Assembly (NCBI RefSeq): GCF_036373705.1
Contig: NC_089857.1
Span: 40,000,784-40,064,783, forward strand
Direction: 5' to 3'
Origin: Amia ocellicauda
Lineage: Eukaryota; Chordata; Actinopteri; Amiiformes; Amiidae
DNA length: 64,000 nucleotides
Made by a program: the position numbers and the translations under genes. Below, in pieces: positions 3,481 through 54,431 of the stretch. Every line of letters begins with the position of its first letter. The first letter of the stretch is position 1. The notes under the pieces are model-generated. The model saw only the letters and a list, made by a program, of their open reading frames with translations. It did no database searches and had not been told where the DNA came from.

Positions 3481-3768
3481 TACAGCACTGCATTTTTTTC
3501 TTAAATCAGCATCCCTACATGTATGGCAACCATTCCATTCCAGTGTCTATTGAATTCCAACACAGGCACCCCTCATTCTACTGAATGAGGTACTGATTAG
3601 GTGATCACCTGAACCAAATCTTATTTAAGGAAAAGTATAAAAAACACTGCTGTGGTCATCTCTATACTCTTGCAATAGCACCAGCTGGTTGGCAAAAAAA
3701 GTGCTAGTAGTACCTCAAAAGTAATTGGAATTAATAAATAACTATTGACCTTGCCAAAAGAGTTGAAA

Positions 3769-4785
3769 ATGAATGTTTTGAGTGAGGAAAAGAAGGGTTC
3801 AATTCTGGCTTTACTGGCAGAGGGATACAGTGAGCGTCGGGTTGCTTCCATCCTTAAAATTTCAAAGACGGCGGTTCATAAGAACAAGGTCAAGCAGCAG
3901 ACATTGGGGACAACAGAGCTACAGACCGGCAGAGGGCGAAAACGACTCTCCACTGAGCGGGATGACCGCCAACTCATTCGAATGTCACTCCACAACCGTA
4001 GGATGACATCAAGTGACCTACAAAAAGAATGGTCGGCAGCTGGGGTGAAATGCACGGCGAGAACTGTTCGAAACAGGCTCCTAGGGGCAGGGCTGAAGTC
4101 GTGCAAAGCTAGAAAAAAGCCTTTCATCAATGAGAAGCAAAGAACAGCCAGGCTGAGGTTTGCAAATGACCATAAGGATTGGACTGTAGAGGACTGGAGT
4201 AAGGTCATCTTCTCAGATAAGTCCAATTTTCAGCTTTGCCCAACACCTGGTCGTCTAATGGCGAGACGAAAACCTGGAGAGGCCTACAAGCCACAGTGTC
4301 TCGCACCCACTGTGAAATTTGGTGGAGGATCGGTGATGATCTGGGGTTGCTTCAGCAAGGCTGGAATCGGGCAGATTTGTCTTTGTGAAGGACGCATGAA
4401 TCAAGCCACATACAAGGTTGTCCTGGAAGAAAATTTGCTTCCTTCTGCTTTGAAAATGTTTCCCAACCCTGAGGATTGGTTTTTCCAGCAGGACAATGTT
4501 CCATGCCACACAGCCAGGTCAATTAAGGTGTGGATGGAGGACCACCAGATCAAGACCTTGTCATGGCCAGCCCAATCTCCAGATCTGAACCCCATAGAAA
4601 ACCTCTGGAATGTGATCAAGAGGAAGATGGATGGTCACAAGCCATCAAACAAAGCTGAGCTACTTGAATTTGTGCACCAGGAGTGGCATAAAGTCACCCA
4701 AGATCAATGTGAAAGACTGGTGGAGAGCATGCCAAGACGCATGAAAGCTGTGATTGAAAATCAGGGTTATTTCACCAAATATTGA
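3769..4785 (+). CDS. Tc1-like transposase, intact reading frame
   Basis: 338 aa from ATG 3769, the expected Tc1 length. An in-frame non-ATG extension upstream was not used. The order is an N-terminal paired-type helix-turn-helix domain (EGYSERRVASILKISKTAV, about residues 18-36), a second HTH and AT-hook-like basic linker (GRGRKRL), then the DDE catalytic domain. Catalytic Asp 1 is in VIFSDKSNF, Asp 2 in FFQQDNVPCH, and the Glu in [11 protein letters not shown], giving DD34E-type spacing. The usual SDES motif reads SDKS here. There is no stop or frameshift. It cuts and pastes DNA at TA sites in the nucleus. Both element ends look truncated, so it could act only in trans. Confidence 0.9.
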   Translation: MNVLSEEKKGSILALLAEGYSERRVASILKISKTAVHKNKVKQQTLGTTELQTGRGRKRLSTERDDRQLIRMSLHNRRMTSSDLQKEWSAAGVKCTARTVRNRLLGAGLKSCKARKKPFINEKQRTARLRFANDHKDWTVEDWSKVIFSDKSNFQLCPTPGRLMARRKPGEAYKPQCLAPTVKFGGGSVMIWGCFSKAGIGQICLCEGRMNQATYKVVLEENLLPSALKMFPNPEDWFFQQDNVPCHTARSIKVWMEDHQIKTLSWPAQSPDLNPIENLWNVIKRKMDGHKPSNKAELLEFVHQEWHKVTQDQCERLVESMPRRMKAVIENQGYFTKY

Positions 4786-11154: not shown

Positions 11155-11314
11155 TGGAGTAATGTTTAAATATTGTTACATTGTTGGTTACATATATATA
11201 TATATTTGTTTTTATTATTATTTATCTTCTTCTTTTCTGATAATGCTTTGGCAATACAAATGTTTAACTGTCATGCCAATAAAGCAATTTGAATTTGAAT
11301 TTGAATTTGAAGAG
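11155..11314 (+). mobile_element. Short non-LTR retroposon 3' end with (TTTGAA)n tail
   Basis: About 160 bp present in block A but absent at the matching point of block B (AAGATGTGCAGCC at 30035-30050). It ends in CATGCCAATAAAGC followed by four copies of a TTTGAA-type hexamer, a usual fish LINE or SINE tail. Imperfect flanking repeats (AGATGT on the left, GAGTGT on the right) fit a target duplication. The insertion is best dated after the duplication of blocks A and B. Confidence 0.7.
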
Positions 11315-11614
11315 TGTGCAGCCTGTAAACTCCAGAGCGATGTGTGCCAAGTCCTGGTGTGAAATATTTTTGCAGCTCACGCTGAAGTGATATTCATGTG
11401 TAATTTATTTATTTTATAAATTTATTTGTTTTTGCACAGTATGTCTCAATAATGCATGGCAGGTCCCTCTTTCTTTGAAGATATGAAATTCTCAGAGCAT
11501 ATTGCCACATGATGTGTATAACCTCAACAAGCTGGCCAATTTAAACAGTGCCTTGTTGCCTAGAAGTAAACAATTAATTTTTATGAATGATTATATATAT
11601 ATACACACAATATA

Positions 11615-12841
11615 CACTCACCTAAAGGATTATTAGGAACACCATACTAATACTGTGTTTGACCCCCTTTCTCCTTCAGAACTGCCTTAATTCTACGTGG
11701 CATTGATTCAACAAGGTGCTGAAAGCATTCTTTAGAAATGTTGGCCCATATTGATAGGATAGCATCTTGCAGTTGATGGAGATTTGTGGGATGCACATCC
11801 AGGGCACGAAGCTCCCGTTCCACCACATCCCAAAGATGCTCTATTGGGTTGAGATCTGGTGACTGTGGGGGCCAGTTTAGTACAGTGAACTCATTGTCAT
11901 GTTCAAGAAACCAATTTGAAATGATTCGACCTTTGTGACATGGTGCATTATCCTGCTGGAAGTAGCCATCAGAGGATGGGTACATGGTGGTCATAAAGGG
12001 ATGGACATGGTCAGAAACAATGCTCAGGTAGGCCGTGGCATTTAAACGATGCCCAATTGGCACTAAGGGGCCTAAAGTGTGCCAAGAAAACATCCCCCAC
12101 ACCATTACACCACCACCACCACCACCAGCCTGCACAGTGGTAACAAGGCATGATGGATCCATGTTCTCATTCTGTTTACGCCAAATTCTGACTCTACCAT
12201 CTGAATGTCTCAACAGAAATCGAGATTCATCAGACCAGGCAACATTTTTCCAGTCTTCAACTGTCCAATTTTGGTGAGCTTGTGCAAATTGTAGCCTCTT
12301 TTTCCTATTTGTAGTGGAGATGAGTGGTACCCGGTGGGGTCTTCTGCTGTTGTAGCCCATCCGCCTCAAGGTTGTACGTGTTGTGGCTTCACAAATGCTT
12401 TGCTGCATACCTCGGTTGTAACGAGTGGTTATTTCAGTCAAAGTTGCTCTTCTATCAGCTTGAATCAGTCGGCCCATTCTCCTCTGACCTCTAGCATCAA
12501 CATGGCATTTTTGCCCACAGGACTGCCGGTTACTGGATGTTTTTCCCTTTTCACACCATTCTTTGTAAACCCTAGAAATGGTTGTGCGTGAAAATCCCAG
12601 TAACTGAGCAGATTGTGAAATACTCAGACCAGCCCGTCTGGCACCAACAACCATGCCACGCTCAAAATTGCTTAAATCACCTTTCTTTCCCATGCAGACA
12701 TTCAGTTTGGAGTTCAGGAGATTGTCTTGACCAGGACCACCCCCCTAAATGCATTGAAGCAACTGCCATGTGATTGGTTGGTTAGATAATTGCATTAATG
12801 AGAAATTGAACAGGTGTTCCTAATAATCCTTTAGGTGAGTG
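11615..12841 (-). mobile_element. Complete Tc1/mariner element, left copy of an inverted pair
   Basis: Its ends are CACTCACCTAAAGGATTATT and the exact inverse AATAATCCTTTAGGTGAGTG, flanked by TA at 11613-11614 and 12842-12843. It is 1227 bp and carries an intact transposase on the minus strand. A second copy in opposite orientation lies at 14800-16018. The DNA between the two is inverted relative to the second genomic copy at 47.4-49.4 kb. Confidence 0.95.
11647..12693 (-). CDS. Tc1-like transposase, intact reading frame
   Basis: 348 aa from ATG at 12693-12691, with no stop or shift. The N-terminal HTH is FERGMVVGARRAGLSISQSA and the second DNA-binding part follows to about residue 120. The catalytic triad lies in VAWSDESRFLL (Asp), YFQQDNAPCHKG (Asp) and [14 protein letters not shown] (Glu). 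A run of six Gly (AGGGGGGV) makes it slightly longer than its sister at 14948. It acts in the nucleus by cut-and-paste at TA. With intact ends and coding sequence this is the best candidate for a recently active element in the window. Confidence 0.93.
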   Translation of the reverse strand: MGKKGDLSNFERGMVVGARRAGLSISQSAQLLGFSRTTISRVYKEWCEKGKTSSNRQSCGQKCHVDARGQRRMGRLIQADRRATLTEITTRYNRGMQQSICEATTRTTLRRMGYNSRRPHRVPLISTTNRKKRLQFAQAHQNWTVEDWKNVAWSDESRFLLRHSDGRVRIWRKQNENMDPSCLVTTVQAGGGGGGVMVWGMFSWHTLGPLVPIGHRLNATAYLSIVSDHVHPFMTTMYPSSDGYFQQDNAPCHKGRIISNWFLEHDNEFTVLNWPPQSPDLNPIEHLWDVVERELRALDVHPTNLHQLQDAILSIWANISKECFQHLVESMPRRIKAVLKEKGGQTQY

Positions 12842-13648
12842 TATTTATATTAACATGCTGAAAGGAAAACAAATGCAAATACAATTTGAAGAAATAATGT
12901 TTTGAAGATTGTTTTGAAGCCTGATCTTCCTTTATCTAAGAATAAAGTACATTATAAATACATCTATGTACATATTTTGTTAACATTGCACACATTTCAA
13001 GCATGCAAATAATAATACAAATTTACACTCATAATGTGTCTTGTAAGCTCCCTCCCTAAAGTAGTCACAACTTCAGTTGAATTCCTGTCATCCCAGCAAA
13101 CACCATTCCCTTCATTCCATGCAAAAGTTGATTTTCTTTAAAGGTCAGCAATACAATTATTGAACAGGCTCAAACTAGCTGAAACTTCTGACAAGAAGTT
13201 TATTGAATCCACTCCCAGCTCAGCACACTCTTGAACTTTCAGTGGCTCAGTGCAGCACTGTGGTAAAGACTCATTTTATTGAGCATCACTCATCCACTTT
13301 AAATTGTGATGTAAATTATGCCAGTTAAGGGGTTACAGAATTGAATGGCATGATTTTCAATTAGAAAAAAGCAAAACTGATAGTAAAACTAGACTATCAG
13401 GTGCAGTGGCTTGGAATGAGAATTTACAAAATATAGATGACTTAAAAAAAAGTTTGTCAAAGAAACTGGAAGTTATACTTGATAATCTTTCTAAGTACAC
13501 CTCTCAATTAATCCTACTACAACTTTGATTACAGTTTATTGTGACATACTGGTGTTTATTTTATGCTTTTTGCCGTGTATCAGACAAGAGAAAGCATTTC
13601 TCCACATACCCTTAACATTTATTATTAATACTTCTAGTGCAATAAGCA

Positions 13649-13662
13649 GTGCCATCTAGTGC
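13649..13662 (-). promoter_or_regulatory. CTCF-like motif in X1
   Basis: The minus strand reads GCACTAGATGGCAC, which fits the vertebrate CTCF core (CCASYAGRKGGCAS) at 13 of 14 positions. The same motif is intact in X2 at 48490-48503 on the + strand, so the inversion of X1 has flipped its direction. Motif only. Binding is not shown. Confidence 0.4.
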
Positions 13663-13748
13663 TGAAAAGTACATACTGTGCAGGTATTGCTTTGTTGTTT
13701 TACTATGTAAACATTTTTTAACCATAGTCTACAACTTAAAATAAATAA

Positions 13749-13754
<6 letters not shown>

Positions 13755-13786
<32 letters not shown>
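13755..13786. repeat. (AT)n microsatellite
   Basis: A run of about 16 TA units. X2 has a short poly-T/A stretch in place of the repeat. Confidence 0.9.
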
Positions 13787-13787
<1 letters not shown>

Positions 13788-14799
13788 AATCTGCAGTCAC
13801 TGACCAAGACACTTGCCAGTAATAAACAAGGAAAGAATATAGAAAATTGTAGGTCATTTCAGTCTATTTGTTTTAATCAGTGATAACTACATTTCATCCA
13901 AAATTCCACATTGCATCAGTGCTACAAAATAAGTTTCTGCTCATACTCTAAGGTTATCATCCTAATAAACAAATCCGTTTCTCTAACACTCACTTACAAG
14001 AATGTTTCTGAATGTACACTTTCTGCAAAATATAAAGACATACAACTTGTTACACAACTTTCTCTCAACTCCAAATTGAGAAAAAAACACACACACAGAG
14101 GAAATAATTAATATACAAAGTCTGTACATTAAGCCAAAGTGTTTGGTTATAATGAACAAGAAAAAAAATACTTCAGACTGATTTTACTTTTGTGAATTGA
14201 TGCTTTGGTTAATAAACACTTTACTAGCCAAATACATACAATATCACCTTATTCAAAATCAAAAAATAAACCAATTAAATTAAAAATAGATAAGATACAG
14301 AAATTGGCACAAATACAATGTAAATAAAAAGTAACCAGGCAAGCTTCTCATTGTTTCTGCTGCTGCCTCTAATCTTACTCACATTGCACTCACAAATATC
14401 AATCACTACCATGACATTTGAAACCACCAGATCACTTGATAGTTTGTGTGCAGAGGTAACGACATGTTAGAAGGCGATTACTGAAAGCTTTATAGAAAAA
14501 ATCATAACAGATAACGAATTTCATTCCAACCAGGAACAATAGATTTACATGAAACATTAAAAAAAGTTTAAATTATGTTACAGATTATAATTTAAACTTC
14601 CCACTCTTTCTTTTTATATCAATTTTATATCAACATAACACGTTAACACTGACTCACATCCAAACTTAGATGTGTGATGGCAGGTATAATGTCTTTAATA
14701 TTGCATTTTCAATTAAAATTATTAATAATGGCTTTCTTTAATAAGAATCAATCAATTCTATTTTAGAGTTTCCCCATTTTATATATGTGTATATAAATA

Positions 14800-16018
14800 C
14801 ACTCACCTAAAGGATTATTAGGAACACCTGTTCAATTTCTCATTAATGCAATTATCTAACCAACCAATCACATGGCAGTTGCTTCAATGCATTTAGGGGT
14901 GTGGTCCTGGTCAAGACAATCTCCTGAACTCCAAACTGAATGTCTGAATGGGAAAGAAAGGTGATTTAAGCAATTTTGAGCCTGGCATGGTTGTTGGTGC
15001 CAGACGGGCCGGTCTGAGTATTTCACAATCTGCTGTTACTGGGATTTTCACGCACAACCATTTCTAGGGTTTACAAAGACTGGTGTGAAAAGGGAAAAAC
15101 ATCCAGTATGCGGCAGTCCTGTGGGCGAAAATGCCTTGTTGATGCTAGAGGTCAGAGGAGAATGGGCCGACTGATTCAAGCTGATAGAAGAGCAACTTTG
15201 ACTGAAATAACCACTCGTTACAACCGAGGTATGCAGCAAAGCATTTGTGAAGCCACAACACGTACAACCTTGAGGCGGATGGGCTACAACAGCAGAAGAC
15301 CCCACCGGGTACCACTCATCTCCACTACAAATAGGAAAAAGAGGCTACAATTTGCACAAGCTCACCAAAATTGGACAGTTGAAGACTGGAAAAATGTTGC
15401 CTGGTCTGATGAAACTCGATTTCTGTTGAGACATTCAAATGGTAGAGTCAGAATTTGTCGTAAACAGAATGAGAACATGGATCCATCATGCCTTGATACC
15501 ACTGTGCAGGCTGGTGGTGGTGGTGTAATGGTGTGGGGGATGTTTTCTTGGCACACTTTAGGCCCCTTAGTGCCAATTGGGCATCGTTTAAATGCCACGG
15601 CCTACCTGAGCATTGTTTCTGACCATGTCCATCCCTTTATGACCACCATGTACCCATCCTCTGATGGCTACTTCCAGCAGGATAATGCACCATGTCACAA
15701 AGGTCGAATCATTTCAAATTGGTTTCTTGAACATGACAATGAGTTCACTGTACTAAACTGGCCCCCACAGTCACCAGATCTCAACCCAATAGAGCATCTT
15801 TGGGATGTGGTGGAACGGGAGCTTCGTGCCCTGGATGTGCATCCCACAAATCTCCATCAACTGCAAGATGCTATCCTATCAATATGGGCCAACATTTCTA
15901 AAGAATGCTTTCAGCACCTTGTTGAATCAATGCCACGTAGAATTAAGGCAGTTCTGAAGGCGAAAGGGGGTCAATCACAGTATCAGTATGGTGTTCCTAA
16001 TAATCCTTTAGGTGAGTG
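14800..16018 (+). mobile_element. Tc1/mariner element, right copy of the inverted pair
   Basis: The same family as 11615-12841 but on the + strand, with TA at 14798-14799 and 16019-16020. Its right flank TATGTAATGG continues into block Y1 and equals the right flank of the empty TA at 49405-49406 in Y2. Its left flank does not match the left side of that empty site. The matching flank is found instead beside the left element (12844), which is the signature of an inversion between the two elements. Confidence 0.95.
14948..15997 (+). pseudogene. Tc1 transposase, frameshifted near the N-terminus
   Basis: Nearly identical to the transposase at 11647-12693. Compared with it, 2 bases are missing at about 15033 (CTGCTGTTACTGG instead of CTGCTCAGTTACTGG), which breaks the frame around residue 30 within the first HTH. 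The normal stop after QSQY is changed from TAG to CAG, so the downstream frame runs on into the terminal repeat. The catalytic domain from 15108 is open, with WSDETRF, FQQDNAPCH and [11 protein letters not shown] all present. Confidence 0.9.
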
Positions 16019-16252
16019 TATATGTAATGGAATGTCACTACAGTCTTAAAGAATCTGCCTTATTATACACAGATACAATGCAGACACAGACCAGCAGATT
16101 CAATCAAAACTTCAATGTGCCAACAATAACTGGTGTAAGGACCAAATATGCTATCAAGTCCTGTTTTTCACTTCTGTATTGGATTGCAGATTTTATTTAA
16201 GATCAACTAGCTCTGTATTCGGATACTCGTTTATTTGAAATACTGCCCCCTC

Positions 16253-16288
16253 ATTGGTGGAAATGGGAAGATGCCGCTTTCCGATTGG
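16253..16288 (+). promoter_or_regulatory. Paired inverted CCAAT boxes of NFIL3 promoter copy 1
   Basis: ATTGG occurs at 16253-16257 and 16284-16288, exactly 31 bp apart, in the contexts CTCATTGGTGG and CCGATTGGCTG. The same pair with the same spacing is kept in copy 2 (51198, 51229). NF-Y binds such sites in CpG-rich promoters. The flanks and spacing are conserved although the gene downstream is truncated. Confidence 0.55.
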
Positions 16289-16532
16289 CTGTGGCGAGTG
16301 TCAATAACAGACTGTTGCCAATGCGTGAGTGTCCGGACTTGAACACAGATCCGCGCAGGAACAGACCCTGCAGCAGGAGAAAGCTGCCGGAGAGGCTCAC
16401 TCCCTGCCGCTGGATTTCTTTAAGCACCGCGGACACTAACTTCTGTCTTTGTCTAACAAGGTTTTTGTTTTTTGAGCTACCATGCCGCAAGACTGCACCG
16501 ATTCGCCATTTAGTTCGTCCTCGATTTAAAAG
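16289..16532 (+). other. Probable non-coding exon 1 of NFIL3, copy 1
   Basis: CpG-rich sequence ends at 16532 in a good splice donor (AAAAG|GTAACA). The same exon end lies at 51487 in front of intact NFIL3. Known vertebrate NFIL3 genes have a non-coding first exon and the whole coding sequence in exon 2. The next matching acceptor is at 23186/23187 in block B. The transcription start was not located. A long antisense open frame across this area is a by-product of its GC content. Confidence 0.55.
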
Positions 16533-17300
16533 GTAACACAACTTGCCTGCTTTATTGTGAGAACATGTTCTGTTGTTACTTAATTGTGCGGATTGATTCA
16601 TTGGGATACTCGCCACTTTAGGGAAACAGTTCCAGTGCAGCGCAGCCGGAGTGGCGCGTCGTCTCCCTTCACTCGGGCTGCGTCCCCAGCCGCGCACTTT
16701 GTCCTTCCCTTGCGGAGCGGAAGTCCTATAGGCGCCATCTTGAGCGCTGTCCCGATACCAGGAGCGAGAGAAGGAGCGGACCGGTGTGTTTGTCCGCTTC
16801 ACTGCTCCCGTCGACGGAGTGAACAAAACCGCCCACTCACGCCACACGATTTACACAGTCCGACGCGGTGGTGAGAAGGGTGGGAAGCTCACACTATTTT
16901 TCGCTAAATATATGTATTTTGCGTCGTGAAGGAGCGCACACTACCCGATCGCACAGCACAGCGGGGTCACACACTTCGCCACTGATCTGAAACCCTGTGT
17001 GGTGGGGAGCTGCGACTCGGCGCGAAACTCCCACCTCTCCATCCGGAGGAAAGGTAAACAAACATGGACGGGGACATTTACAGGTCACGATCGTCTAGCG
17101 CAGATGTCCGCAGATCTGCGCGGCTCCACCAATGGGATCAGTGGGATTGTGCAGATCTGTGTAGAACTGCGGAAATCTGCGCAGCAATACAAACGTGTTT
17201 GTATTAGTCTGTGCGGACAGAAAAGATAGTGTGGGTGAAGACATGGCTGGGAGTGGAGGACATAGCCTTATACTGTGTGTGAGAGCTGGAGGTGAGCAAC
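16533..17300. promoter_or_regulatory. CpG-rich intron start, CpG-island-like
   Basis: CpG dinucleotides are frequent from about 16250 to 17240, against a CpG-poor background. A segment at 17093-17185 repeats GCAGATCTG-type words several times. No coding frame is convincing. The density of surviving CpGs suggests that the promoter copy stays unmethylated in the germ line, unlike the decaying coding exon downstream. Confidence 0.5.
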
Positions 17301-23329: not shown

Positions 23330-24566
23330 CAGGTGCATTACAGATTAAAGGAAAAACCTGAATAAATGAGAGGAGGAACATAACGAATCCAGATGTCTCC
23401 AAACAGGTGTACATGATACAATTAAGCAATTAACATCCTATCGTGCTCTATGGCATGTATAAAAATGCTGAGCAGGCCCAATTGACATCGATTTTGGATC
23501 AAGATGGCAAGAGGAAAGGATCTAAGTGACTTTGAAAGAGGGGTCATTATTGGGGCACGAATGGCAGGAGCTTCAGTCACAAAGGCTGCTCAACTGGCTA
23601 GTGTTTCAATTGGAACAGTGACTAAAGTTACATCTGCATTTAGATCTATGGGAAAGACATCGGTAAATAGGGTTGGAAATTGTGGTCGAAAGCGCACATT
23701 AGATGACCGCGATGCTCATGCATTACTGCAATATGTAAAGAAAAACAGAAGAGCAACTCTTTCCCAGGTGACTGAGAATGTCAATGCAAGACGTGATCAG
23801 ACTGTGTCAGCAAGAACAGTCCGTCGAGAACTACACAGAGAGGGATATAGCAGGGTTGCAGTGCATAAACCCCTCAGTACAAAGACACATGCACTTTTGA
23901 GAGTTCAGTGGTGCAAAAACCATAGGCACTGGTCTACAGAGATCTGGAAAAAAGTGATATGGTCAGATGAGTCATCCTTCACCATATTCTCAACAAGTGA
24001 GCATACACCAAGAGAACAGTACAGGCCAGACTGCTTGACCCCTACAGTGAGGGGGTCCGAGGGCTCTGTTATGCTGTGGGGGGCATTTTCCTGGCATGGT
24101 TTGGGTCCACTTGTCCCGTTAGAGGGAAGGGTCACTGCAAATGATTACAAAGTTATTCTGAGTGATCACCTTTATCCTATGGTGAAACATTTCTATCCTG
24201 ATGGGAGTGGTCTGTTTCAGGATGACAATGCCCCCATCCACAGGGCACGAGGGGTCACTGAATGGTTTGATGAGTATGAAAATGATGTGACTCATATGTT
24301 ATGGCCTTCGCAGTCACCAGATCTCAACCCAATTGAACAGCTATGGGAGATTCTGGACCGACGTGTTAGACAGCGCTCTCCACCACCATCATCAAAACAC
24401 CAAATGAGGGAATATCTTTTGGAAGAATGGTGTTCCATCCCTCCAGTAGAGTTCCAGAGACTCGTAGAATCTATGCCAAGGCGCATTGAAGCTGTTCTGG
24501 CAGCTTGTGGTGGCCCAACACCTTACTGAGACACTTTTTGTTGGTTTTTCCTTTAATTTGTCACCC
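23330..24566 (+). mobile_element. Tc1/mariner element with intact transposase in an NFIL3 5'UTR
   Basis: The left end CAGGTGCATTACAGATTAAA follows TA at 23328-23329. The right end GGTTTTTCCTTTAATTTGTC is its inverted match, but the last bases and outer TA have decayed. Intact NFIL3 (58.25-58.33 kb) lacks the element and has a (TA)n run there. Block A holds a chimeric derivative. Confidence 0.88.
23504..24529 (+). CDS. Tc1-like transposase, intact reading frame
   Basis: 341 aa from ATG 23504 with no interruption. An N-terminal paired-like HTH ([19 protein letters not shown], about residues 11-29) is followed by a second HTH (to about residue 115). The DDE domain has Asp in [12 protein letters not shown], Asp in [12 protein letters not shown] and Glu in [14 protein letters not shown]. 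The C-terminus is [20 protein letters not shown]. It encodes a TA-specific cut-and-paste transposase. The right end of its element is degraded, so self-mobilisation is doubtful. The element separates the NFIL3 leader from its ATG in block B. Confidence 0.92.
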
Positions 24567-24615
24567 ATTTTTATATATAAAACAAAATAGCCAAAATATT
24601 TTACAAACTTAAAAT

Positions 24616-25140
24616 ATGCAGGCAATCGAGAAAGAACAGCCAATGATGGACTCTTGTAGTGGATATAATGTTCTAGTACTGGCTGCAGCTTTACAGGGCT
24701 CAGATGGGGACTTGGTGTCTCGCAAATTACCAGGTGTGGGCTTTAAGCCAAAAAACTCGTCATGCCGCAGAAAACAGGAGTTTAACCTCGATGGAAAAGA
24801 AAAAGATGATAAATACTGGGAGAAGTGCTGGAAGAACAATGAGACTGCCAAGTGGTACAGAGAGAAGCAGAGGCTCAGCGACATGAACCTCGAGAATAAA
24901 CTGATGGCTTTGGGAGAGGAGAACTCTACCTTGAAAGCCAAGCTGTTGTCCCTGAAACTCAAGTTCGGTCTGGTCAGTTCTTCAGCCTACGCCCAAGAGG
25001 TGCAGAATCTTTCGACTTCCACCGCGTTCTATCAGGAGTTGAACTTGGCCACCGCGAGCAGAAGCTCTTACTCCGGGGACCCAGAGCCCACTTTGGTCAG
25101 CAGCAGTTGCATTTCTATTATAAAGCACTCTCCGCACAGT
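24616..25140 (+). pseudogene. NFIL3 coding exon, truncated copy with damaged basic region
   Basis: It aligns with residues 1 to about 174 of NFIL3 at 58351. The frame is open from its ATG through 175 codons and then runs 14 codons into Tc1 sequence before a stop, giving 189 aa. The DNA-contact motif NNEAAKRSREKRR reads NNETAKWYREKQR, and the preceding EKRRK is EKCWK. Most of these changes are CpG to TpG or CpA, as expected in a methylated, unconstrained copy. The leucine zipper ([20 protein letters not shown]) is almost unchanged. The whole C-terminal repression region is missing. It is probably a pseudogene. A dominant-negative bZIP product is formally possible if transcribed. Confidence 0.88.
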
Positions 25141-25815
25141 CCAAAACCTGTGCACATCATCCTGAGAACACCATCCCTACCGTGAAGCATGGTGGTGGCA
25201 GCATCATGCTATGGGGATGCTTCTCTGCATTAGGGCCTGGCAAAATGGATGCAGCAAAGAGGATGCTTACAGAGAAATCCTGTATGAAAACCTACTGAAG
25301 TCTGCAAGAGACCTGGGACTTGGGAGAAGATTAATCTTCCAGCAGGACAATGACCCTAAACATACAGCCAAAGCCACACTGGAGTGGCTTAAAAACAAAA
25401 AGGTCAATGTCCCAGAGTGGTCTAGTCAAAGCCCGGACCTCAATCCAATTGAGAATATGTGGAATCAGTTTATGGAAAATGTGGAAAATTGCTGTTCACC
25501 AAAGATCCCCATCCAACTTGATGGAGCTTCAGCAATTTTGCAAAGAAGAATGGGCACAATTGCTGTCTGGTAGAGACTTATCCACATAGACTCATGGCTC
25601 TAATTGCTGCCAAAGGTGCCTCTACCAAATATTGACTGAAGGGGTGATTATTTATGCATTCAAGTATTTTCTGTTTTGTATTTGTAATTAATTTAGAACA
25701 ATTTACAGATTATATTTTTCACTTTGACATTATGGACATTTTCTGTGTTGATCAATGGCAAAACTCCTGAAATGTGGAAAAGTCCAAGGGGGGTGAATAT
25801 TTTTGAGAGCCACTG
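25141..25815 (+). mobile_element. Tc1 fragment truncating NFIL3 copy B
   Basis: It begins inside a transposase gene ([28 protein letters not shown]). It continues in shifted frames through [19 protein letters not shown] and [14 protein letters not shown], and ends in the right terminal repeat GAGAGCCACTG at 25815, followed by TA. Its left half is absent, so its join to NFIL3 at 25140/25141 is a deletion junction. Part of it is shared with block A. Confidence 0.9.
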
Positions 25816-28800: not shown

Positions 28801-30338
28801 TTAAATTCCGTCACCATTCATTGTTGTGTTGCCATTTTGTTATTAACTTTTACCAGGTAAATACACCAAAAATAGATTCTTCTGTTCCTCCACCTCCTTA
28901 TAAATGGCTTGCTTACGTGCAGTGAGGGAGGCACACAAATGCCCCTCTGTTTCGACTGCTCACCAGAAGCAGGGGACTTGGCTCCCTCCAGTGAAATGTT
29001 AGGAGCTTGTTCTTTATGCTCTTTCTGTTCCCCCTATATGTGTGTTAGAACATAAGAAAGCCTCCTCTCGTTTGTAAACTATTTGGAGTGCTCATGTGTG
29101 TTAAAAGGGTCCTCAGCCTTGTTACCTTTCACTATGTGTTCCTTCTTATTTAGATCACAAACATTTCCTTCTGCTCTCCGTACATCACTGTGGTGAAATA
29201 AACAGTCATTTTAATATCTTTAACATACACAGCTGATTTATGCATACTTTTTAAAAATATAAACAGTTTTCATGTTTGAGTGGGAAAGTAAAGTGTAGCA
29301 TAAATAGATAGTCTCTGCAGAATCTGGGAGCAGTTTGGTTTTCACATCTGTATAAAAATATGTTTTAAAACAAAAGGAAGGTCTTATGATCCCACCGTTA
29401 TCTCAGTGCTTCAATCTTTTGTATCAGAACTGTGTCTCCTATTGAGAGGTACCCCATTTTGGCAAGTCTGCATGAATCCTGCCATGCAATTTATTGATTT
29501 AATTATCAAATAGAGTGCATGAGTTGTTTTTTTTTTTCTTCAGTTGTACTCTTGCTACTCCAGGCTCTAATTCAAAATGTTAGTCTAATAGGTGGTTAAA
29601 AAGAAAAATTCAGTAAACTTATAACATTATTGCATAGGATAGTACAAATAGGAGCCACACTTTTCTCACATTATTCATATTTTAGTGTTTAGCGGAATAC
29701 TGATTTCACTGGGATCTGTTAGCACTTTAGACATGCATTAAACCAACTTAGAAACTGTTGATAGCACCAGAGAACTGAGCAAGCACTAGGCTCACTGGCC
29801 TTTTTGGCGGGAAAGATCCCCAGGATAAAAAGCCTTCCCTCAGCATGGCGATTCATTATGCCATTAGTTCATATCTCTGACATCCATCCATGTCAACAAT
29901 CGCATGTTTATGTGAAGAGCTGAGCTCAAGGCAGCATTTTCTTTTAATAAAGGAAAATGAATTGCTTTTTCCTCCGACAGAAGACGTGCCCACGTGGACG
30001 GGCTCTGAAATGAAGGGAATATTTTAGCAGGTCACAAGATGTGCAGCCTGTAAACTCCAGAGCGATGTGTGCCAAGTCCTGGTGTGAAATATTTTTGGAG
30101 CTCACGCTGAAGTGATATTCTTGTGTAATTTATTTATTTTTCCCCAACCCTGTATCTTATTTGTTTTCGCACAATATGTCTCAATAAAGCATGGCAGGGC
30201 CCTCTTTCTCTGAAGATATGAAATTCTCAGAGCATATTGCCGCATGATGTGTATAACCTCAACGAGCTGGTCAATTTAAACAGTGCCTAGTTGTCTAGAA
30301 GTAAACAATTTATTTTAATGAATGATATATATACAGTA
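25818..30338. other. NFIL3 downstream flank, copy B, no gene recognised
   Basis: Non-coding sequence matching 6562-11612. It holds a LINE fragment at 27580-27790, the second copy of the CpG-rich patch at 28000-28220, and the CR1 tail fragment at 29045-29080. Confidence 0.7.
27580..27790 (+). mobile_element. LINE reverse-transcriptase C-terminal fragment
   Basis: The + strand encodes LREWARHTARRTDQRWTNEA, then a stop, WIPRDDNIPRR, then THKRLGRHRCRWKQVDGG. This is the Trp/Arg-rich tail found at the C-terminus of RTE-like and related non-LTR polymerases (WAGH.AR..D.RW pattern). It is absent from the matching place in block A (near 8563). Confidence 0.55.
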
Positions 30339-30612
30339 TGTATATAAAAACAACTATTTTAAATAGTTCCAATTTTGAAGATCTGCTTCATGACTTTTAG
30401 CTCATGACAGGAGATACACAACAAATGCCCAATGCCGATGTGTATGCTAACCCTGTGAGATGAAAAATTCTCTTTATAAAACTGTCTGGTTTAACAGTCA
30501 AGGGAACAAGGTTGATCAAACTACACTAGTTCATATCTTTGACCTTATGTACACACATGCTTAATGTGGTTCTCCTTTGAAACATCTAACTAATTAACAT
30601 CTCTTTGTAGTT
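30339..30612. other. No gene recognised
   Basis: AT-rich sequence between the end of block B and a LINE. Nothing was recognised. Confidence 0.5.
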
Positions 30613-34715: not shown

Positions 34716-37102
34716 TTTTGTTCTATCATGGCCAGAAGACCATTTCCTCTTGTGTGCTTCACTGAAGGTTGACTGACACACACACACACAAACTGTAGTG
34801 GCCTGCCTCCCACACTCCGTGTTAGTTTTTTCTTTGTATGAGATGTCAACTGAAAGATTTGAAATACTCTGCTAAACCGAGGTTTATAATGCACTGTATT
34901 TTCCTCCCCTGTGTTTCTTTTTCTCTCTGTTATATTGTTGTTACAGATTACTTTGTGGTGACATAAATTACAACATACAGCCCTGCCATATACACATTTG
35001 TTTAAGCATGTATGGAAAAGGAATTATACATCTTGCCAGAGTTTCCACTTTGGAAAATTGTCGCATATCAAGACCATTTCCAGTGGACAATCTCTGGGGA
35101 TCTTGAAAGAGCCAGCTAATGGATAACTCAGTCTGGTAGTTCAGCGTTTGGCATTTCTCGGATTTTTCACAGTTTGTAAACTCTCCAAAACAGTCACTTG
35201 AAATACCAGATTCATGTCCACTGAAAAAAAGAAAAATAAAAAAAGTTGCATTAAGGAACCAAAACACAGACAGAAGATTTTGGTCAAATTACAGTAAAGG
35301 GAAAATTAGACTGCTTGTATGCAAAGTTTTTTTTTTATAAGCAGGTAATTACAGCACTTGAAGGGAATTCAACTTAATGAGAGTATAACTGGTATGGTAT
35401 GGAGAGTTTACCCGGGCAGCCTCGCCAAGCAGGGTTGGCCCAGCGCTGCTTTGTGTGTCCACTGTGGGGCCTGTTGTCTGTGCGGAGAGGCGCGGCCCGC
35501 TGGTATCCAGACTTCCGCATCGAAGATAACAAGAAAATGAAAACATTGTGGTGGAGAGGAAGTCCTATGTAAAACAACAGGTTGGGGAAAATCCAAACTA
35601 TATTGGGGGACAAAGGTGCATCAATCCGAGAACATAATAACCTTATTCATTTGTGTCAGAATGTATGACATTACAGCCTTCCTGTTCTGCAGATCTTTGA
35701 AGATGGGGGGGAAGAGTTTTGTCACTGGCTGGTGATGTGGAAAATAATTTAAACTTTCTTAGTGTAAAATATGGGGGGATGAATTTCCAAATAGTGTAGA
35801 ATATGTTTTACTAGGATTCATGTTTGTCTTACTCGTGAGAAATGGCTAACACTCTCAGACAGGCCCGGGCCCAATCCAAACTTCAACCCTGCCTGTACTT
35901 CATTTTCATAAGGTAGAAAGAAGAACCCTCTGTCAAACTCTAAACTGGCATCAAATACTGGAAATGTCTTCTGCGATTGCCTCTTGAAAATTGCTGACCT
36001 TAGAATAACATTCTTGCTCTACACTCTACACTGTGATTTACATGGCGCTGTGTTTTTGCATGAAAAACAACCCCCATGAAGCAAGATTTCTGCTGGGTAT
36101 CATTCAGCAGATACTAGAATATTCTTGTTGATTGTGGCCATGGGTTACAACTATTTTTAGCCCAACTTGTTATAGATGTCAGAAAAGCCTCTCCAGTGAT
36201 ACTGTGGACACATGCTGTGGAGAGCAATGAGAGCACATTTATCTCCTGTCAAACAATGAAGTGTATTGTTTTCAGTAAGTATTTATGGAAAATCGAGGGG
36301 AAACAGTTATGTTTGGGGTCAGAGGAATATAATTTTGTGTTTGTTTCATTTAGATCAGAATTTTAGGGAGGATGTTCAGAATATATTCGAACAATCTCAT
36401 GTATTCCTTTATAAATCAAGCCGAAATGCCGTCAAGTTTTTATTTTTCCACATAAAGCATAAGTCGTGCGGTGGATTAGTGAGGTTTATAAGTAATTACC
36501 TCTTCTTGAGGATTAGGTTTTGGGATAGAGTTCCATGCAGATTAAACTCTTTCAAGGTGTGCATTAGGACTTGTTTGGCACACCTAAAAACAGAAGGCAG
36601 AATTAATTGCTTTCACAGATTTTCAGTATCATGTTCATGTTTTTTTATTTTGTTCTTTCAAGCTGCTTTTGGCTTTGAGAGAAAATCTATTTTCCCAGTT
36701 TCCTCCTCACTTCTAAGATCAGAAGCTGTGAAGAAAATGCTGGATGATTTGAGAGTATTATTTAGGCTCGTTGTGTAGCCAGCCCCGTTACAGTTTATCT
36801 GTTGAGTGGGAATTTCAAAATACATCTTGACACCTTGTGAGAAAGATTGAAACTACAGCAGCAGCAACAAGCCAAGCTTTTTATTTCCACACACAAGTGT
36901 CCATCAACGTGCCTCTGAGGGAAGGCAGCTATCTCTGGAATCTGTACTGAGCCAGGCCCTTCCACAAACCTTCAGCCTTCAGTGCTGTTTTATTTGTGTT
37001 GCTTTATAAATTGCAACAGACCTGTCAAGTGTTTTGTTTTGCTGATCTTAATTCCTTCTAATTAATTCCCAATCTCCCAATACTGTTCCTCTTGTGCTGC
37101 AG
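34716..37102. other. Probable ROR2 intron, no exon recognised
   Basis: Open frames up to 170 codons (for example from 36266, which has no good ATG) show no family resemblance. A CpG-rich patch at 35400-35530 was examined and no domain was recognised. No ROR2 immunoglobulin-domain exon was seen. The region lies upstream of the cysteine-rich-domain exon and is likely intron plus old repeats. Confidence 0.55.
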
Positions 37103-37371
37103 CCCCGTTTACCATGATCGGCACCTCCACCCACCTGTCCGACCAGTGCTCCCAGTTTGCCATCCCCTCCTTCTGCCACTACGTGTTCCCGCTCTGTGAC
37201 GAGGGCTCCCGCAACACCTGGCAACGGGAGCTGTGCCGAGACGAGTGCGAGGTCCTGGAGAACGACCTGTGCCACACGGAGTACACCATCGCCCGCTCCA
37301 ACCCTCTCATCCTCATGCAACTACAGCTGCCTGTGTGCGCCGCCCTGCCCCTGCCCGAGTCCCCTGAGGCG
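37103..37371 (+). pseudogene. ror2: ROR2 Frizzled-like cysteine-rich domain exon (pseudogene part 1)
   Basis: After the acceptor GTGCTGCAG the frame reads [20 protein letters not shown], then [28 protein letters not shown] and [20 protein letters not shown]. This is the Wnt-binding CRD of ROR receptor tyrosine kinases, closest in wording to ROR2. The conserved cysteines of this stretch are present and there is no stop within it. It stops matching after PESPEA, and the remainder of the normal exon (Cys-Met-Arg-Ile stretch) is missing. The gene as a whole is dead because later exons carry stops and deletions. Confidence 0.93.
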
Positions 37372-37491
37372 GTTAGAACTCCTGCATGGAGTTCTTCTGT
37401 GCCCAAAGCTGGAGCCCTTTTTCATATTTCCATCCTTAATACTGTAGCATCCTGTAGCTGAATTGTTTAAAGATCCTCCCACAGATCAGAT

Positions 37492-37737
37492 CACAAGTGT
37501 TACAATGGCAGTGGAGCAGATTACAGGGGCACAGTCAGTATGACCAAGTCAGGGTACCGATGCCAGTACTGGAACACCCAGGTGCCCCACAGCCACCATC
37601 TGACCGGCATGGAGTACCCCAAGCTCGGACGGGACCACAACTACTGCCGTAACCCCGGGGGGCAGATGGAGGGGCCCTAGTGCTTCACACAGGATGAGAG
37701 CAACCGTAGTGGGAAGCGATATTCCCGCCTGCAGTAA
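37492..37737 (+). pseudogene. ror2: ROR2 kringle domain exon with premature stop (part 2)
   Basis: The frame reads [20 protein letters not shown], then [16 protein letters not shown] and [12 protein letters not shown]. The conserved Trp codon of the motif PWCFT is then TAG at 37678-37680. The sequence continues CFTQDES before similarity fades. Kringle cysteines and the YRG and CRNP motifs are clear. The stop would remove the membrane span and kinase. No transmembrane exon was recognised after it. Confidence 0.93.
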
Positions 37738-37980
37738 GTGGACCCTCGGGAATATGATAAGAGAATAATGGGTTGTGAGAAACTTCACGGCCTTGGATGG
37801 TATAACCTCCATGTCTAATTATCTTCTTTGTATTCGTTTAATCTTTGTAAGTTGTGAGTTTCAAGGTAGACGCATACTACCGCCAGATGGAGTTACATTT
37901 TAAAATGTGGTTTTGATTGTTTGTTTGTTTTTTATTCCAAATGCTTGCTGAAAATATTATATTGTATTTATGTTATATAG

Positions 37981-38153
37981 TACCTCTCCAGTAACCACGT
38001 GGTGCACAAAGATCTGGTCACCAGAAACATCCTCATTTGCGACAAACTGAACATCAAGATCCTCAACTTGGGCCTCCGTCGATTACTACAAGCTGATGGG
38101 GACCAACCCCTTCCCCATTCGTTAGATGTTGCCAGAGGCCATTGTGGAAGTAA
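37981..38153 (+). pseudogene. ror2: ROR2 kinase catalytic-loop segment, frameshifted (part 3)
   Basis: The frame reads [20 protein letters not shown], then [12 protein letters not shown]. The catalytic loop Asp (HKDL) and Asn are kept, but the metal-binding Asp of the ROR-type DLG motif is Asn (AAC at 38065-38067). About 8 codons after it are deleted with a frameshift. Another frame continues [14 protein letters not shown], a stop in place of the conserved Trp, then MLPEAIVE. The kinase N-lobe with the ATP-binding site is absent upstream. An insertion begins at about 38153. Confidence 0.93.
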
Positions 38154-39531
38154 CTCAGTCTTCAATCAGGTTGGAACGTTTGTTGCAAAACCTTTATTAC
38201 ACACAGCATGGAGAACAGCAGTGAATCAAGAAGATTCCAAAGTTGCTCTGACTCCATACTAAAAGTCAGATGCTTTTATACACACAGAAGTCAAAGATCT
38301 GTCATTACTATGTTATCCTAAAAGCTAGCTAAGCAGAAGATATATCATCTGCTCCCTTTAGGTGATATCATTCGACGACATAATATTAACTTTAACAGTT
38401 ACGCAGATGACACACAATTATATCTGTCAGTAAATCCTAACAATACCATAGACCTAGTAAAACCAATCTGCTGTCTGTCTGAGATTAAATCATGGATGCC
38501 AAAAAAAAATCTTATGCTTAATTCTGACAAAACAGAAGTCCTCATTTTAGGGGACAAAAATCGAACTGTTCATCATGCACTGACAAAACTGAGTAATGAT
38601 AACTTTAATTTCTCCCCTAAGGAGATGGCACGAAACCTGGGTGTCATCTGTGATCATAATCTATCCTTTGAATCACACATTCAGAATGTGTAGAGATCTT
38701 CCTTCCTCCAACTTAAGGGACTGGCACCTCCCTACTTAAAAGATCTCCTTATTGAATACACTCCAGGTCGGCCATTGAGATCCCAGGAAGCCGGTTACAT
38801 AGTGCTCCCTAAAATACACAAGAAAACCACAGGTGGTAGAGCATTCAGTTATAGGGCCCTGAAACTGTGGAACGATCTTCCAGCCAATATAAGACATGCC
38901 CCCTCTGTCTTAGCCTTTAAATCACGGCTGAAGACTCATCTGTTTAGTTTCTGTTTTTCTAGCCCATAGTGCCGCCGGTGTGCCATGGACATGCAATGCA
39001 TAACTGTCTTTGGAAATGTCTTGCACTGCATGACCAGTATCTGAGCACGACTGCCTTCTTGTCTTCCAGCAACAGCCCCCTCTGAGGGTCCGATGAGGCA
39101 CCTCGTCCCCCACCATGGAAGTCTAACTGGGCACAACCCACCTCCAGGGCACCCCACCATGGAGGGCCAACGAGCCATCGCCACCCAAAGGCTGTTGAGG
39201 GTCCCCATCCCCGATGACCGGCGAGAGGCCTCCTCCAGAGGGAAGACCACAGCCAGCAGCACCGATAAAGAACTTTCTGATCTCCTTGCTGCTGTAATAA
39301 CTATACTGCCTGGAGGGGACGCAACCATTAGGCCTAGGCCCTAAGCCGTGGACCCCCAGAGATTCATTTTCTCCTACATGCCATCCATAGGAGTTTTTTG
39401 TTTTTCTCTCCTCCGTGCGTAAATGGTTTATTTACTTAAATGTATTATTTTATTTTGCTGTACATTTGTTGTATGTTTACCAGTCTGTAGCGCTCTGTGG
39501 CTACCCTGCGAAGGGTGCTATACAAATAAAA

Positions 39532-39565
<34 letters not shown>

Positions 39566-39776
39566 CATTATAAGACAGAGTTCATAGGTCAATACAAGGA
39601 TTAGGGAGCAGACACTTAAATCATATTGTTTGGCATTGTCTCCAAGATGCTCATTGTAAATAACAAACAGAGGTCAAACTACCTTCTGGCCTGACCGTTG
39701 GCTTGACTATATCTTTCTATACATGAAGTAAAACATTTGTGAGAAAATAATTTCTAGCTTTACTTCCACACTATCA
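38154..39776. mobile_element. Composite repeat insertion in the ROR2 kinase exon
   Basis: ROR2 sequence breaks after the codons for PEAIVE and resumes with YGKF at about 39777, so about 1.6 kb was inserted inside one exon. The core (38353-39565) is an L2-type LINE end. The outer parts (38160-38350 and 39566-39775) are not identified and may belong to an older element that received the LINE. Confidence 0.8.
38353..39565 (+). mobile_element. L2/CR1-group LINE 3' end
   Basis: It begins at the polymerase active site (NSYADDTQLYLSVNPNN) and continues with LMLNSDKTEVLILG and NLGVICDHNLSFESHI. The C-terminal block follows: LRSQEAGYIVLPK and GGRAFSYRALKLWNDLPANI, then SVLAFKSRLKTHLFSF. About 600 bp of GC-rich 3' sequence ends GGGTGCTATACAAATAAAAA followed by an (ATTG)n tail. 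It is 5' truncated, with a stop at about 38690. Confidence 0.85.
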
Positions 39777-39928
39777 TGTATGGCAAATTCTAGGTGGACT
39801 CTGACATCTGGTCCTATGGGGTGGTGCTGTGGGAGATCTTCAGCTGCGCACTGTAGCTCTTCTGTGGTTACTCCAACCAGGATGTCATCGAGATGGTGAG
39901 AAACCACCAGGTGCTGCCAATGATCTAC
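39777..39928 (+). pseudogene. ror2: ROR2 kinase C-lobe segment with two stops (part 4)
   Basis: The frame reads YGKF, a stop (TAG), then VDSDIWSYGVVLWEIFSCAL, another stop, then [20 protein letters not shown]. The conserved DxWSYGVVLWE helix of kinase subdomain IX is clear. It is interrupted at MIY by a SINE. Confidence 0.93.
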
Positions 39929-40010
39929 TTTGTTTGCACTTTGTATGCACTTATGTTGTAAGTCGCCCTGGATAAGGGCGTCTGCTAAGAAATAAAAATA
40001 ATAATAATAA
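39929..40010 (+). mobile_element. SINE 3' end with target duplication in ROR2
   Basis: An 82-bp piece ends GTCGCCCTGGATAAGGGCGT, then CTGC and an (ATA)n tail, which is a common fish SINE 3' end. It is flanked by TGATCTAC (39921-39928) and TAATCTAC (40011-40018), an 8-bp target duplication with one difference. It separates two adjacent kinase codons. Confidence 0.85.
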
Positions 40011-40137
40011 TAATCTACACCCTCATGCTGGAGTGCTAGAACACGTTCAGGAGGCCAGGTTCATAGACATCCACACCCGACTACAGACCTGGGAGAGCCT
40101 GTCCAATTACAACAGCTCGGCCCAGACCTCACAAGTA
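40011..40137 (+). pseudogene. ror2: ROR2 kinase end and start of Ser/Thr-rich tail (part 5)
   Basis: The reading is YTLMLEC, then a stop where the invariant Trp of subdomain XI is expected, then NTFRRPG. After a shift it reads FIDIHTRLQTWESLSNYNSS and AQTS. It is cut at about 40137 by a 1-kb inverted-repeat element. This is the fourth place where a TGG codon has become TAG. Confidence 0.92.
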
Positions 40138-44998: not shown

Positions 44999-45248
44999 GG
45001 GCGTTTTCAGTGTGTAACTGGTGGGAAATGATGGTGGGAGAATGGAGACAGTGGACTGGTCAAAATGCCCTGCTGCATAAAACGCTGGAGCGACAACCAA
45101 TCAGATGCAGGCATTCAGTTTGGGGTGGGTGTGTACCTGGTACTCCTAGGTGTGGGCGTGGCTACAGCCCTAAAAGGTCCCAGCCGGTCCGTATCGCAGA
45201 CACAGCGCCGCGCACTTGATCCTGGCGCTGCACCTCGGCGCACCAGAT

Positions 45249-47373: not shown

Positions 47374-49404
47374 TATATAAAATGGGCAAACTCTGAAATA
47401 GTATTGATGTATTTTTATTGAATCCAGCCTTACACTTAAAATAAGCCATTATTAATACTTTTAATTGCAATTGAAAACATGGCCAACAATTATTAAAATA
47501 TTAAATGCATGATGTCTACCATCGCACATCTATGTTTGGATGTGAGTTAGTGTCAATGTGTCATGTGTATATACAAAAATGTATATACAAAGAAAAAGTG
47601 GAAAGTTTGAATTCTAATCTGCAATGTAATTTAAACATTGATATTATTTTTCTTTGTTTCATATAAATCCATTGTTCCTGGTTGGAATGAAAAATTGTAT
47701 AATCTATTATGATTCTTTCTCTAAAGCTTTCACTAATCCCCTTTTAACATGTCATTACCTCGACACAAACTATCAGGTCATTTATTATTGTTTTTGTGAT
47801 TGATATTTGATGCAAGTAAGGTTAGAGGCAGCAGCAGAAACATTGAGAAGCTTGCCTGGTTACTTTATTTTCATTCTATTTGTGCCAAAAAAAAAAAATC
47901 TTATCTATTTTTAGTTTTTTTTTTTTTTTTTTAATAAGGTGATATTATTATTTGTTGTAAAGTGTTTACTAACCAAAGTATCAATTCACAAAAGTGAAAT
48001 CAGACTGAAATATGTTGTTTTCGTTCATTTGAACAGAACACCTTGGCTTAATGTATAGTTATGACTTTGTGTATTCTATATTTGCTATGTGTGTGTTATT
48101 TCTCAATTTGGAGTTGGAGATACAACTTGTTACAATTTTGATGTCTTTTTTATTTTGCAGATAGTCTACATTCAGAAACATTCTTGTAAGTCAGTGTTAG
48201 AGAAACGGATTTGTTTATTAGGATGATAACCTTAGAGTATGAGCAGAAACTTATTTTGTAGCACTGAAGCAATGTGGAATTTTGGATGAAATGTAGTTAT
48301 CACTGATTAAAACAGACTGAAATTACCTACAATTTTCTATATTCTTTCTTTGTTTATTACTGGCAAGTGTCTTGGTCAGTGACTGCAGTTTTGTATAGAT
48401 TTTTTTTTAGTTAGTTGTAGACTATGGTTAAAAAATGTTTACATAGTAGAACAACAAAGCAATACCTGCACAGCAGGTTATACTTTTCAGCACTAGATGG
48501 CACTGCTTGTTGCATTAGAAGTATTAATAATAAATGTAAAGGGTATGTGGGGTTTATTAAAATGCTTTCTCTGGTCTGATACACAACAAATAAGCATGAC
48601 ATACACACCAGTATGTCAGTGTCCTTTTGGACAGTACACAAAACTGTAATCAAAGTTGTAGTAGGATTAATTGAGAGGTGTGCTTAGAAAGATTATCTAG
48701 TATAATTTGCAATTTCTTTGACAAACTTTCTTTAAACATCTATATTTTGTGCATAATGTTTTTTTTTTTTTCATTCCAAGCCACTGCACCTGATAGTCTA
48801 GTTATACTATCAGTTTTACTTTTTCTAATTGAAAATCATGCCATTCAATTCTGTAACCTCTTAACTGGCATAATGTACACCTCAATTTAAAGCGGATGAG
48901 TGATGCTAAATAAGATAAGTCTCTGCCACAGTCTGAGCCGCTGAAAGTCAAAGCTGGGAGTGTAGTCGATGGCAAACACAACAACTGAAGCCAGATCTTG
49001 TCAGAAGTTTCAGCTAGTCTGAGCCTGTTCAGTAATTGTTTTGCTGACCTTTAAAGAAAATCAACTTTCACCTACAGGCCAATAGATGTCAGTCTTCCCT
49101 CTGGTTAAGCGACATTATAAACCAATGTCCAAGTATGGAGACAGTGCTGTGCTGAAGGGAGTGGTGTTTGCTGGGATGACATATGAATTCAACTGTCTAC
49201 TTTTAGGGAGGGAGCCTACAAGACAAATTAGGAGTGTTCATCTATTTGTTTTTTGCATGCTAGAAATGTGTGCAATGTTAACAAAATATGTACATACATG
49301 TATTTATAATGTACTTTATTGTTGGATAAGGAAGATCAGGCTTCAAAACATGATTTCTTTAAATTGTATTTGCATTTGTTTTCCTTTCAACATGTTAATA
49401 TGAA
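47374..49404 (+). repeat. Block X2, reference orientation of X1
   Basis: The inverse of 12844-14785. Here X runs directly into Y at an unoccupied TA (49405-49406) without any Tc1. It contains the CTCF-like motif at 48490-48503 and poly-T tracts. No gene is recognised. Confidence 0.93.
48490..48503 (+). promoter_or_regulatory. CTCF-like motif in X2
   Basis: GCACTAGATGGCAC, identical to the X1 copy but in the opposite genomic direction because X1 is inverted. Confidence 0.4.
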
Positions 49405-50127
49405 TATATGTAATGGAATGTCACTACAGTCTTAAAGAATCTGCCTTATTATATACAGAGACAGACCAGCAGATTCAATCAAAACTTCAGTGTGCCAACA
49501 AAAGTGGTGTAAGGACATAAATATGCTATCAAGTCCTGGGTTTGTAACTTCTGGATTGGTTTGCAGTTTTTATTTCAGCTCCAATCTTAGTTAAAAAATA
49601 CAACTGTTTAAATTAAACAATTGGATGTGCCCTTCAAATTCAGAACAATGTCATGATCGTATAGTGCCATTTTCTCCTAAAGGTAAAGGGAAAATTGCTG
49701 TGTAGAGGAAATAATATTGCTGTGATCTCACCACATAAAAGTGTCACAATTCAGGAAACAATGCGTTCCATATTACACACTGCAAAGAGAGGAATATTTC
49801 ACGTGTTGGAAGACTATTGAAATGATAAAAAACAGAGGAAGTTTGGTAATTGCATTTCTCAAATAAGCTGGAACACTCCGATGTTTCATTAGCCTTGTTT
49901 TGCAGTATAATACTGAAGCTCTTTCAAAGACCATATTGACGAAGAAGACAAACACTGCTTGTGTTGCATGCAGAGGGGGGCAGGGAGACAGAGGAGGTGG
50001 GAGGCTGGGACATGTTCTTGGTGGGGATATTGTTTGCGCTTGCCCAACAGTTGGGAAACTTAAAGCACACAAAGCTATATGATGGTCAATTTCACTGCTT
50101 TCGGTCAATATATTTAATATAATTCAG

Positions 50128-54201: not shown

Positions 54202-54431
54202 TACAGTGAGGGAAAAAAGTATTTGATCCCCTGCTGACTTTGTATGTTTGCCCACTGACAAAAAAATGATCAGTCTATAATTTTAATGGTAGGTGTATTT
54301 TAACACTGAGAGACAGAATAACAGCAAAAAAATCCAGAAAAACGCATTTCAAAAAAGTTATAAATTGATTTGCATGTTAATGAGGGAAATAAGTATTTGA
54401 TCCCCTATCAATCAGCAAGATTTCTGGATCC

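Follow-up and report, generated by a model that had tools for sequence, protein, structure and literature searches.

Inversions bounded by transposable elements (TEs) are already known. As presented in PMC2775673, hybrid insertion produces identical element copies and ectopic recombination produces chimeric ones. For humans, the figures given in PMC9675761 are 2,454 bp for TE-mediated inversions between opposite elements, against 8,870 bp for other inversions. Ectopic recombination between TEs has also been proposed as a cause of rearrangement in the Atlantic salmon genome, in which Tc1-mariner is the largest class (PMC8127823), and mobilisation of Sleeping Beauty is known to cause inversions (PMC1584263). 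Among the elements themselves, Incomer (IC) is described as a DD36E Tc1/mariner family of about 1.2 kb, with terminal inverted repeats (TIRs) of 22-32 bp, a TA duplication and an open reading frame (ORF) of about 346 aa, and as widespread among ray-finned fish (PMC6875036). Here, we analyse a stretch of 64,000 bases, free of N, from contig NC_089857.1 of Amia ocellicauda (C8:40000784-40064783; hereafter, the window), in which two opposite Tc1-like DD36E elements flank a 2-kb block that lies in reverse to its paralogues. The simplest reading is that one insertion site has been split between the two elements, as an earlier note on this DNA had proposed. The structure was read from one genome assembly of 988 Mb in 385 contigs, over which the genome-wide counts were also taken.

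Layout of the inverted block and its target sites

In the list below, TL and TR are the left and right elements, and X, Y and L are the blocks that flank two target sites, A and B. Negative window coordinates, where they occur, lie upstream of the window.

11310..11612, plus strand: L1, left flank, paralogue of L2 at 30036-30340 (self-BLAST)
11613..11614: TA, outer end of TL
11615..12841, minus strand: TL, full-length 1,227-bp Tc1-like transposon with DD36E spacing and 29-bp perfect TIRs
11647..12693, minus strand: intact transposase ORF of TL, 348 aa, with Pfam HTH_23, HTH_Tnp_Tc3_2 and DDE_3 and residues D155, D248 and E285
12842..12843: TA, inner end of TL; X-side half of site A
12844..14797, minus strand: X1, inverted 1,954-bp block, the reverse of X2
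14798..14799: TA, inner end of TR; X-side half of site B
14800..16018, plus strand: TR, 1,219 bp, full-length, of the same family as TL and with a broken transposase frame
16019..16020: TA, outer end of TR; Y-side half of site A
16021..16204, plus strand: Y1, right flank of site A (self-BLAST, alignment)
16019..16743, plus strand: tract of 725 bp with an identical counterpart in the upstream unit (window coordinates -14402 to -13678)
30036..30340, plus strand: L2, paralogue of L1, flank of site B (self-BLAST, alignment)
47374..49404, plus strand: X2, uninverted paralogue of X1 (self-BLAST, alignment)
49405..49406: empty site A, a single TA between X2 and Y2 (alignment)
49407..49581, plus strand: Y2, uninverted right flank (self-BLAST, alignment)

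All four element ends carry a TA, and both elements have perfect 29-bp TIRs, which bears out the placing of two opposite Tc1-like copies at these positions in the earlier note. Self-BLAST of the window matches X1 with X2 in reverse and Y1 (from 16021) with Y2 forwards. When the right end of X1 is joined to Y1 through one TA, the rejoined flanks align without a gap over 49405-49406; in the order found at site A, the Y side alone aligns and the X side does not. The reversal of X1 and the survival of the empty site as that single TA, which had also been claimed, are thus confirmed by self-BLAST and alignment, and no breakpoint complexity was seen at site A.

A third unit of the same tandem array lies within the 30 kb upstream of the window, and in it X and Y are joined, uninverted, at a single TA (C8:39986381-39986382, window coordinates -14402 and -14401). 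Site A is unbroken in both of the uninverted paralogues. A genome search with X1 found three matching places only, all of them inside the array, and no stray contig. The second uninverted paralogue strengthens the reading of an inversion with a split site and, given that two of the three units have the uninverted order and an empty site, the unit that carries the two elements is probably the derived state. Because tandem paralogues on the same chromosome still show the uninverted order, no second genome is needed to read the structure.

At site B, L1 (up to 11612), one TA and the far end of X1 (read backwards from 14797) make up a plausible single TA site. The stretch of L1 at 11310-11599 matches L2 at 30036-30333 with 90.7% identity by self-BLAST, or 94.1% over aligned bases, and the left side of the site tracks L2 (30215-30340) until a TA-rich tract is reached.

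Depending on the alignment, the identity of X1 and X2 over aligned bases is 90.5% (173 differences in 1,814) or 87.1% (237 in 1,841), and indels are numerous. The divergence of 9.5% of aligned bases is larger than that of other paired blocks of the array (3.3-7.2%); alignment trouble or reduced conversion after the inversion are possible reasons. The upstream unit lacks about 430 bp of X near a decayed Tc1-like relic, named by eye, that occupies about -16954 to -15680 in TA-rich sequence, close to the homologue of the left boundary of X2.

Origin of the two elements and of the inversion

The earlier note had spoken of two copies of one Tc1 element, one of them with an intact transposase. They are indeed of one family, but its spacing is DD36E and not DD34E, with 36 residues between D248 and E285 of the TL transposase, and they represent different lineages within it. 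The intact transposase is that of TL, since TR carries a 2-base deletion (alignment columns 236-237) and its frame hits a stop after 39 codons. Over 1.2 kb, TL and TR are 97.9% identical, with 16 substitutions, two indels and a clean run of about 455 columns. By spacing, length and TIRs, and by comparison with the description of IC, the family appears to be of the Incomer type rather than Tc1 proper. The family and IC are alike in their length of about 1.2 kb, in TIRs (29 bp here), in the TA duplication, in the single ORF and in the 36 residues from the second D to E, and they differ in that the TL transposase has 348 aa rather than about 346, with two codons (6 bp) inserted into a run of glycines. 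Outside this genome, no relative of the element was found by megablast of plasmids and phages or in viral contigs, and the eight pattern matches in prokaryote genome contigs included none.

Given that the family is very abundant in this genome, many inverted pairs are to be expected. For instance, 29 bases from close to the element's 3′ end are matched exactly at 14,718 places, or one per 67 kb, not all of them necessarily in full-length copies; by simple arithmetic, random placement would give about 430 neighbours no more than 2 kb apart, half of them in opposite orientation. Among the 57 other copies that we compared, 52 have a TA on both sides, as cut by BLAST, and one further opposite pair occurs, at C18:16784500-16792500, in which the copies are 1,968 bp apart and 99.4% identical.

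The lineage of TL is marked by variants that it has in common with two sampled copies, L002 and L003, namely A-C at columns 312-313, A at columns 339 and 616, and the 6-bp insertion, and it differs from these copies at only 4 of 1,227 bases. The insertion is present in 3 of the 57 sampled copies, once with a base change, and an exact 28-base pattern that includes the pair at columns 312-313 occurs three times in the genome, in TL and in two other places; TR does not have the pair. In the tree of the elements, TL, L002 and L003 form a clade with a support of 99/96, and forcing TL and TR into one clade costs 26.7 log-likelihood units and is rejected by the approximately unbiased (AU) test (p 0.0226). 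Elsewhere the tree is weakly resolved, with 40 of 53 inner branches open and a bootstrap that has not settled. The sampled copy nearest to TR, L007, is eight bases and one gap away from it. On balance, these comparisons suggest that TL and TR are separate insertions from different sub-lineages.

Two other patterns were considered and set aside. The differences between TL and TR are clustered (p 0.0037 for the longest run, p 0.0004 for the three longest taken together and p 0.00145 for the variance), as conversion between the two might produce, and we made no use of this clustering because other copies indicate that several of the differences are lineage variants that predate insertion. Six sub-families of TR, drawn from variants that are each present in one to eight sampled copies, were rejected as well, as no sampled copy has more than one such departure; in so large a family, a search that favours copies with a chance match at one base would be expected to produce such sharing of single variants.

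We consider it likely that two insertions took place and that recombination between the inverted copies then flipped X1. Two DD36E Tc1-like elements would have inserted separately and in opposite orientation at TA sites flanking a 2-kb block, within the middle unit of a tandem array with ror2- and nfil3-like sequence. An exchange between the inverted copies would then have turned X1 around and left each element with one flank from each original site. The likeliest form of this exchange would be ectopic homologous recombination between inverted repeats, which we prefer because it requires no rare double cleavage and because the repeats are long and similar; we infer from the sequence both this preference over end-joining exchange and the order of events. 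Another possibility is an aberrant event in which the ends taking part belonged to two different elements. Of the mechanisms that the earlier note had put forward, recombination between separate inverted insertions is therefore favoured and aberrant transposition from one element is disfavoured, since TL and TR come from different sub-lineages.

Several observations weigh against recombination between separate insertions. The lineage markers of TL are unbroken over columns 211-720, and therefore any crossover would have to lie outside this block; chimeric copies are not demonstrated. Outside these columns there are hardly any family markers, too few to judge whether the copies are chimeric, and for this reason undemonstrated chimerism is weak evidence. 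The combination of variants that TR has at columns 1185 and 1194 recurs in a single copy, which lies 684 kb from it at C8:39332393; if that copy is kin to TR, then TR is probably whole and a crossover in columns 720-1185 is unlikely. The same copy shares none of the eight other listed departures of TR (seven substitutions and the 2-base deletion), and a genome search for the T at column 1185 by itself gives 30 exact matches, compared with 14,718 for the common form. TR could have the double 3′ variant in common with that copy by chance, in which case nothing follows. The A at column 616, a minority base that TL and TR have in common and that is found in 5 of the 57 other copies, is a weak counter-sign and points weakly to kinship of, or conversion between, the two elements. 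In addition, the 57 copies were picked by their similarity to TL or TR, which biases the frequencies among them, and the second side of site B lies in TA-rich sequence, where the alignment is gapped and the position of the join is, for that reason, inexact. The whole account is also drawn from one assembly of a single individual.

This last point bears on the possibility of an assembly error, in which two 1.2-kb repeats of 98% identity led to the block between them being placed backwards. Mis-joins are classic at long inverted repeats, and the case is known from the assembly alone. Even so, neither the window nor the 60 kb of flank contains a single N, the repeats differ at 18 places, which is sufficient for long-read placement, and the three places matched by X1 lie in the array and not on a stray contig, so we regard an error as unlikely, albeit with a real residual chance. 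It is improbable that transposase cut both inner ends and freed X1 with identical ends, after which the block was rejoined in reverse and the elements remained whole. TL does resemble a whole member of its own lineage, as TR may do too, the transposase ORF of TL is intact, and mobilised Sleeping Beauty concatemers have led to local inversions in mice, according to PMC1584263; nevertheless, two simultaneous cuts and seamless joins at both ends would have been required.

The insertion of a hybrid element, in which one element was replicated and the ends of the sister copies jumped jointly to the other site and inverted X1, would yield the same structure (as laid out in PMC2775673). It predicts copies that are identical at birth, whereas TL has lineage variants that are absent from TR, and with a clade of the two rejected by the AU test, it could be rescued only through later conversion by a distant copy, so we hold it to be very unlikely. 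Hardly credible is the arrival of element, X and element as a single composite transposon with no inversion in place: both outer ends are intact TIRs with a TA, as this would require, but the landing of the unit next to Y1, at precisely the homologue of site A, would have to be a coincidence.

An identical tract at the outer end of TR

The 725-bp tract at 16019-16743 is 100% identical to C8:39986381-39987105 in the upstream unit. It starts at the TA of the outer end of TR and ends where a 3.6-kb stretch, missing from the middle unit, begins in the upstream one. Among 38 direct exact matches of at least 80 bases in the 124-kb region, it is the longest, and the next has 316 bases. The homologous sequence that flanks the tract is about 10% diverged. 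On the X side of the tract start, 127 of the 1,234 bases that align between the middle and upstream units are different, the nearest difference being 15 columns off; on the Y side, each of the two units differs from the other unit of the window at 50 of 655 bases.

To judge from these alignments, the tract most likely arose by gene conversion in the recent past, limited at one end by TR and at the opposite end by other unmatched sequence. The conversion is probably younger than the insertion of TR, because the tract shows no difference, whereas about ten would be expected in one as old as that insertion if TR had acquired most of its differences from the nearest sampled copy since then. It is possible that a break at the end of TR was repaired from the neighbouring unit. 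That the DD36E transposase made breaks at the element ends, and that their repair both flipped X1 and copied the 725 bp from the neighbouring unit, strikes us as quite improbable. If true, one transposon pair would have driven an inversion and the local homogenisation of a tandem gene array, and the segment might still be able to flip.

Array context and place among known inversions

The array extends from -29129 to 58875, and its units contain ror2-like, nfil3-like bZIP and nfil3 sequence. Its recognisable genes and gene parts in the window include the following.

24613-25182: 5′ part of another nfil3 copy, truncated after about 190 codons
37066-37458: best match among solved structures is ROR2 (9fse_A, E 1.3e-46)
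45174-46847: further bZIP gene
58318-59769 (ORF): full nfil3, Vert_IL3-reg_TF, E 5.4e-145

Counterparts of the ror2- and nfil3-like stretches are present in the upstream unit, and the middle unit is without the 17-kb ror2/bZIP part that lies between L2 and X2. We considered a deletion of this 17-kb ror2/nfil3-like stretch by the elements, but the join of L1 and X1 could equally be a tandem-duplication breakpoint. The 11-base direct repeat TGTATATAAAA, found by eye at about 30339 and 47373, shows only the TA-rich setting of both joins.

By position and eye only, 16210-16672, adjoining X1, looks like the promoter and first exon of nfil3. X1 itself lies in non-coding sequence. The nfil3 copy downstream is broken, which is why we claim no effect of the inversion on a gene. 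At the truncated copy of 24613-25182, Tc1-like sequence runs from about 25156 onwards. At 36829-41656, a decayed-looking copy of ror2 was recognised by eye from ORFs (Fz, a probable kringle, a scrap of the kinase and the C-terminus), and some of its exons match their upstream counterparts at 98%. The surroundings also hold other Tc1-like sequences, namely two more open transposase frames of 347 codons from different families (3742-4782 and 23486-24526) and two 1.6-kb copies, 96.7% identical and with inverted ends of about 200 bp, at window coordinates 54199-55787 and 74778-76373.

The inversion is of an ordinary kind and calls for no new process, and it leaves the general picture unchanged. 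It is a compact natural case of a transposon-bounded inversion. Among the titles listed by literature searches outside most subscription journals, none deals with an inversion caused by IC or DD36E elements. What is new here is the identical 725-bp tract at the outer end of TR, where the sharp boundary of the likely conversion at the element end shows by example that conversion between tandem copies can be limited by an insertion.

Among described cases, the human inversions at Alu and LINE-1 elements are alike in the opposite orientation of the repeats, in their kilobase size and in a repeat identity close to the LINE-1 median of 97.1% given in PMC9675761, and they are unlike the present one in that retroelements are involved there and a DNA transposon here. 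The Galileo inversions 2j, 2q7 and 2z3 of Drosophila buzzatii, as characterised in PMC2775673, likewise have opposite copies of a cut-and-paste transposon at their breakpoints, with the target-site flanks exchanged and a single target site in the uninverted sequence. Galileo, however, belongs to the P superfamily, its inversions are polymorphic and 2z3 has chimeric copies, whereas the inversion described here involves a Tc1-like element and a 2-kb block.

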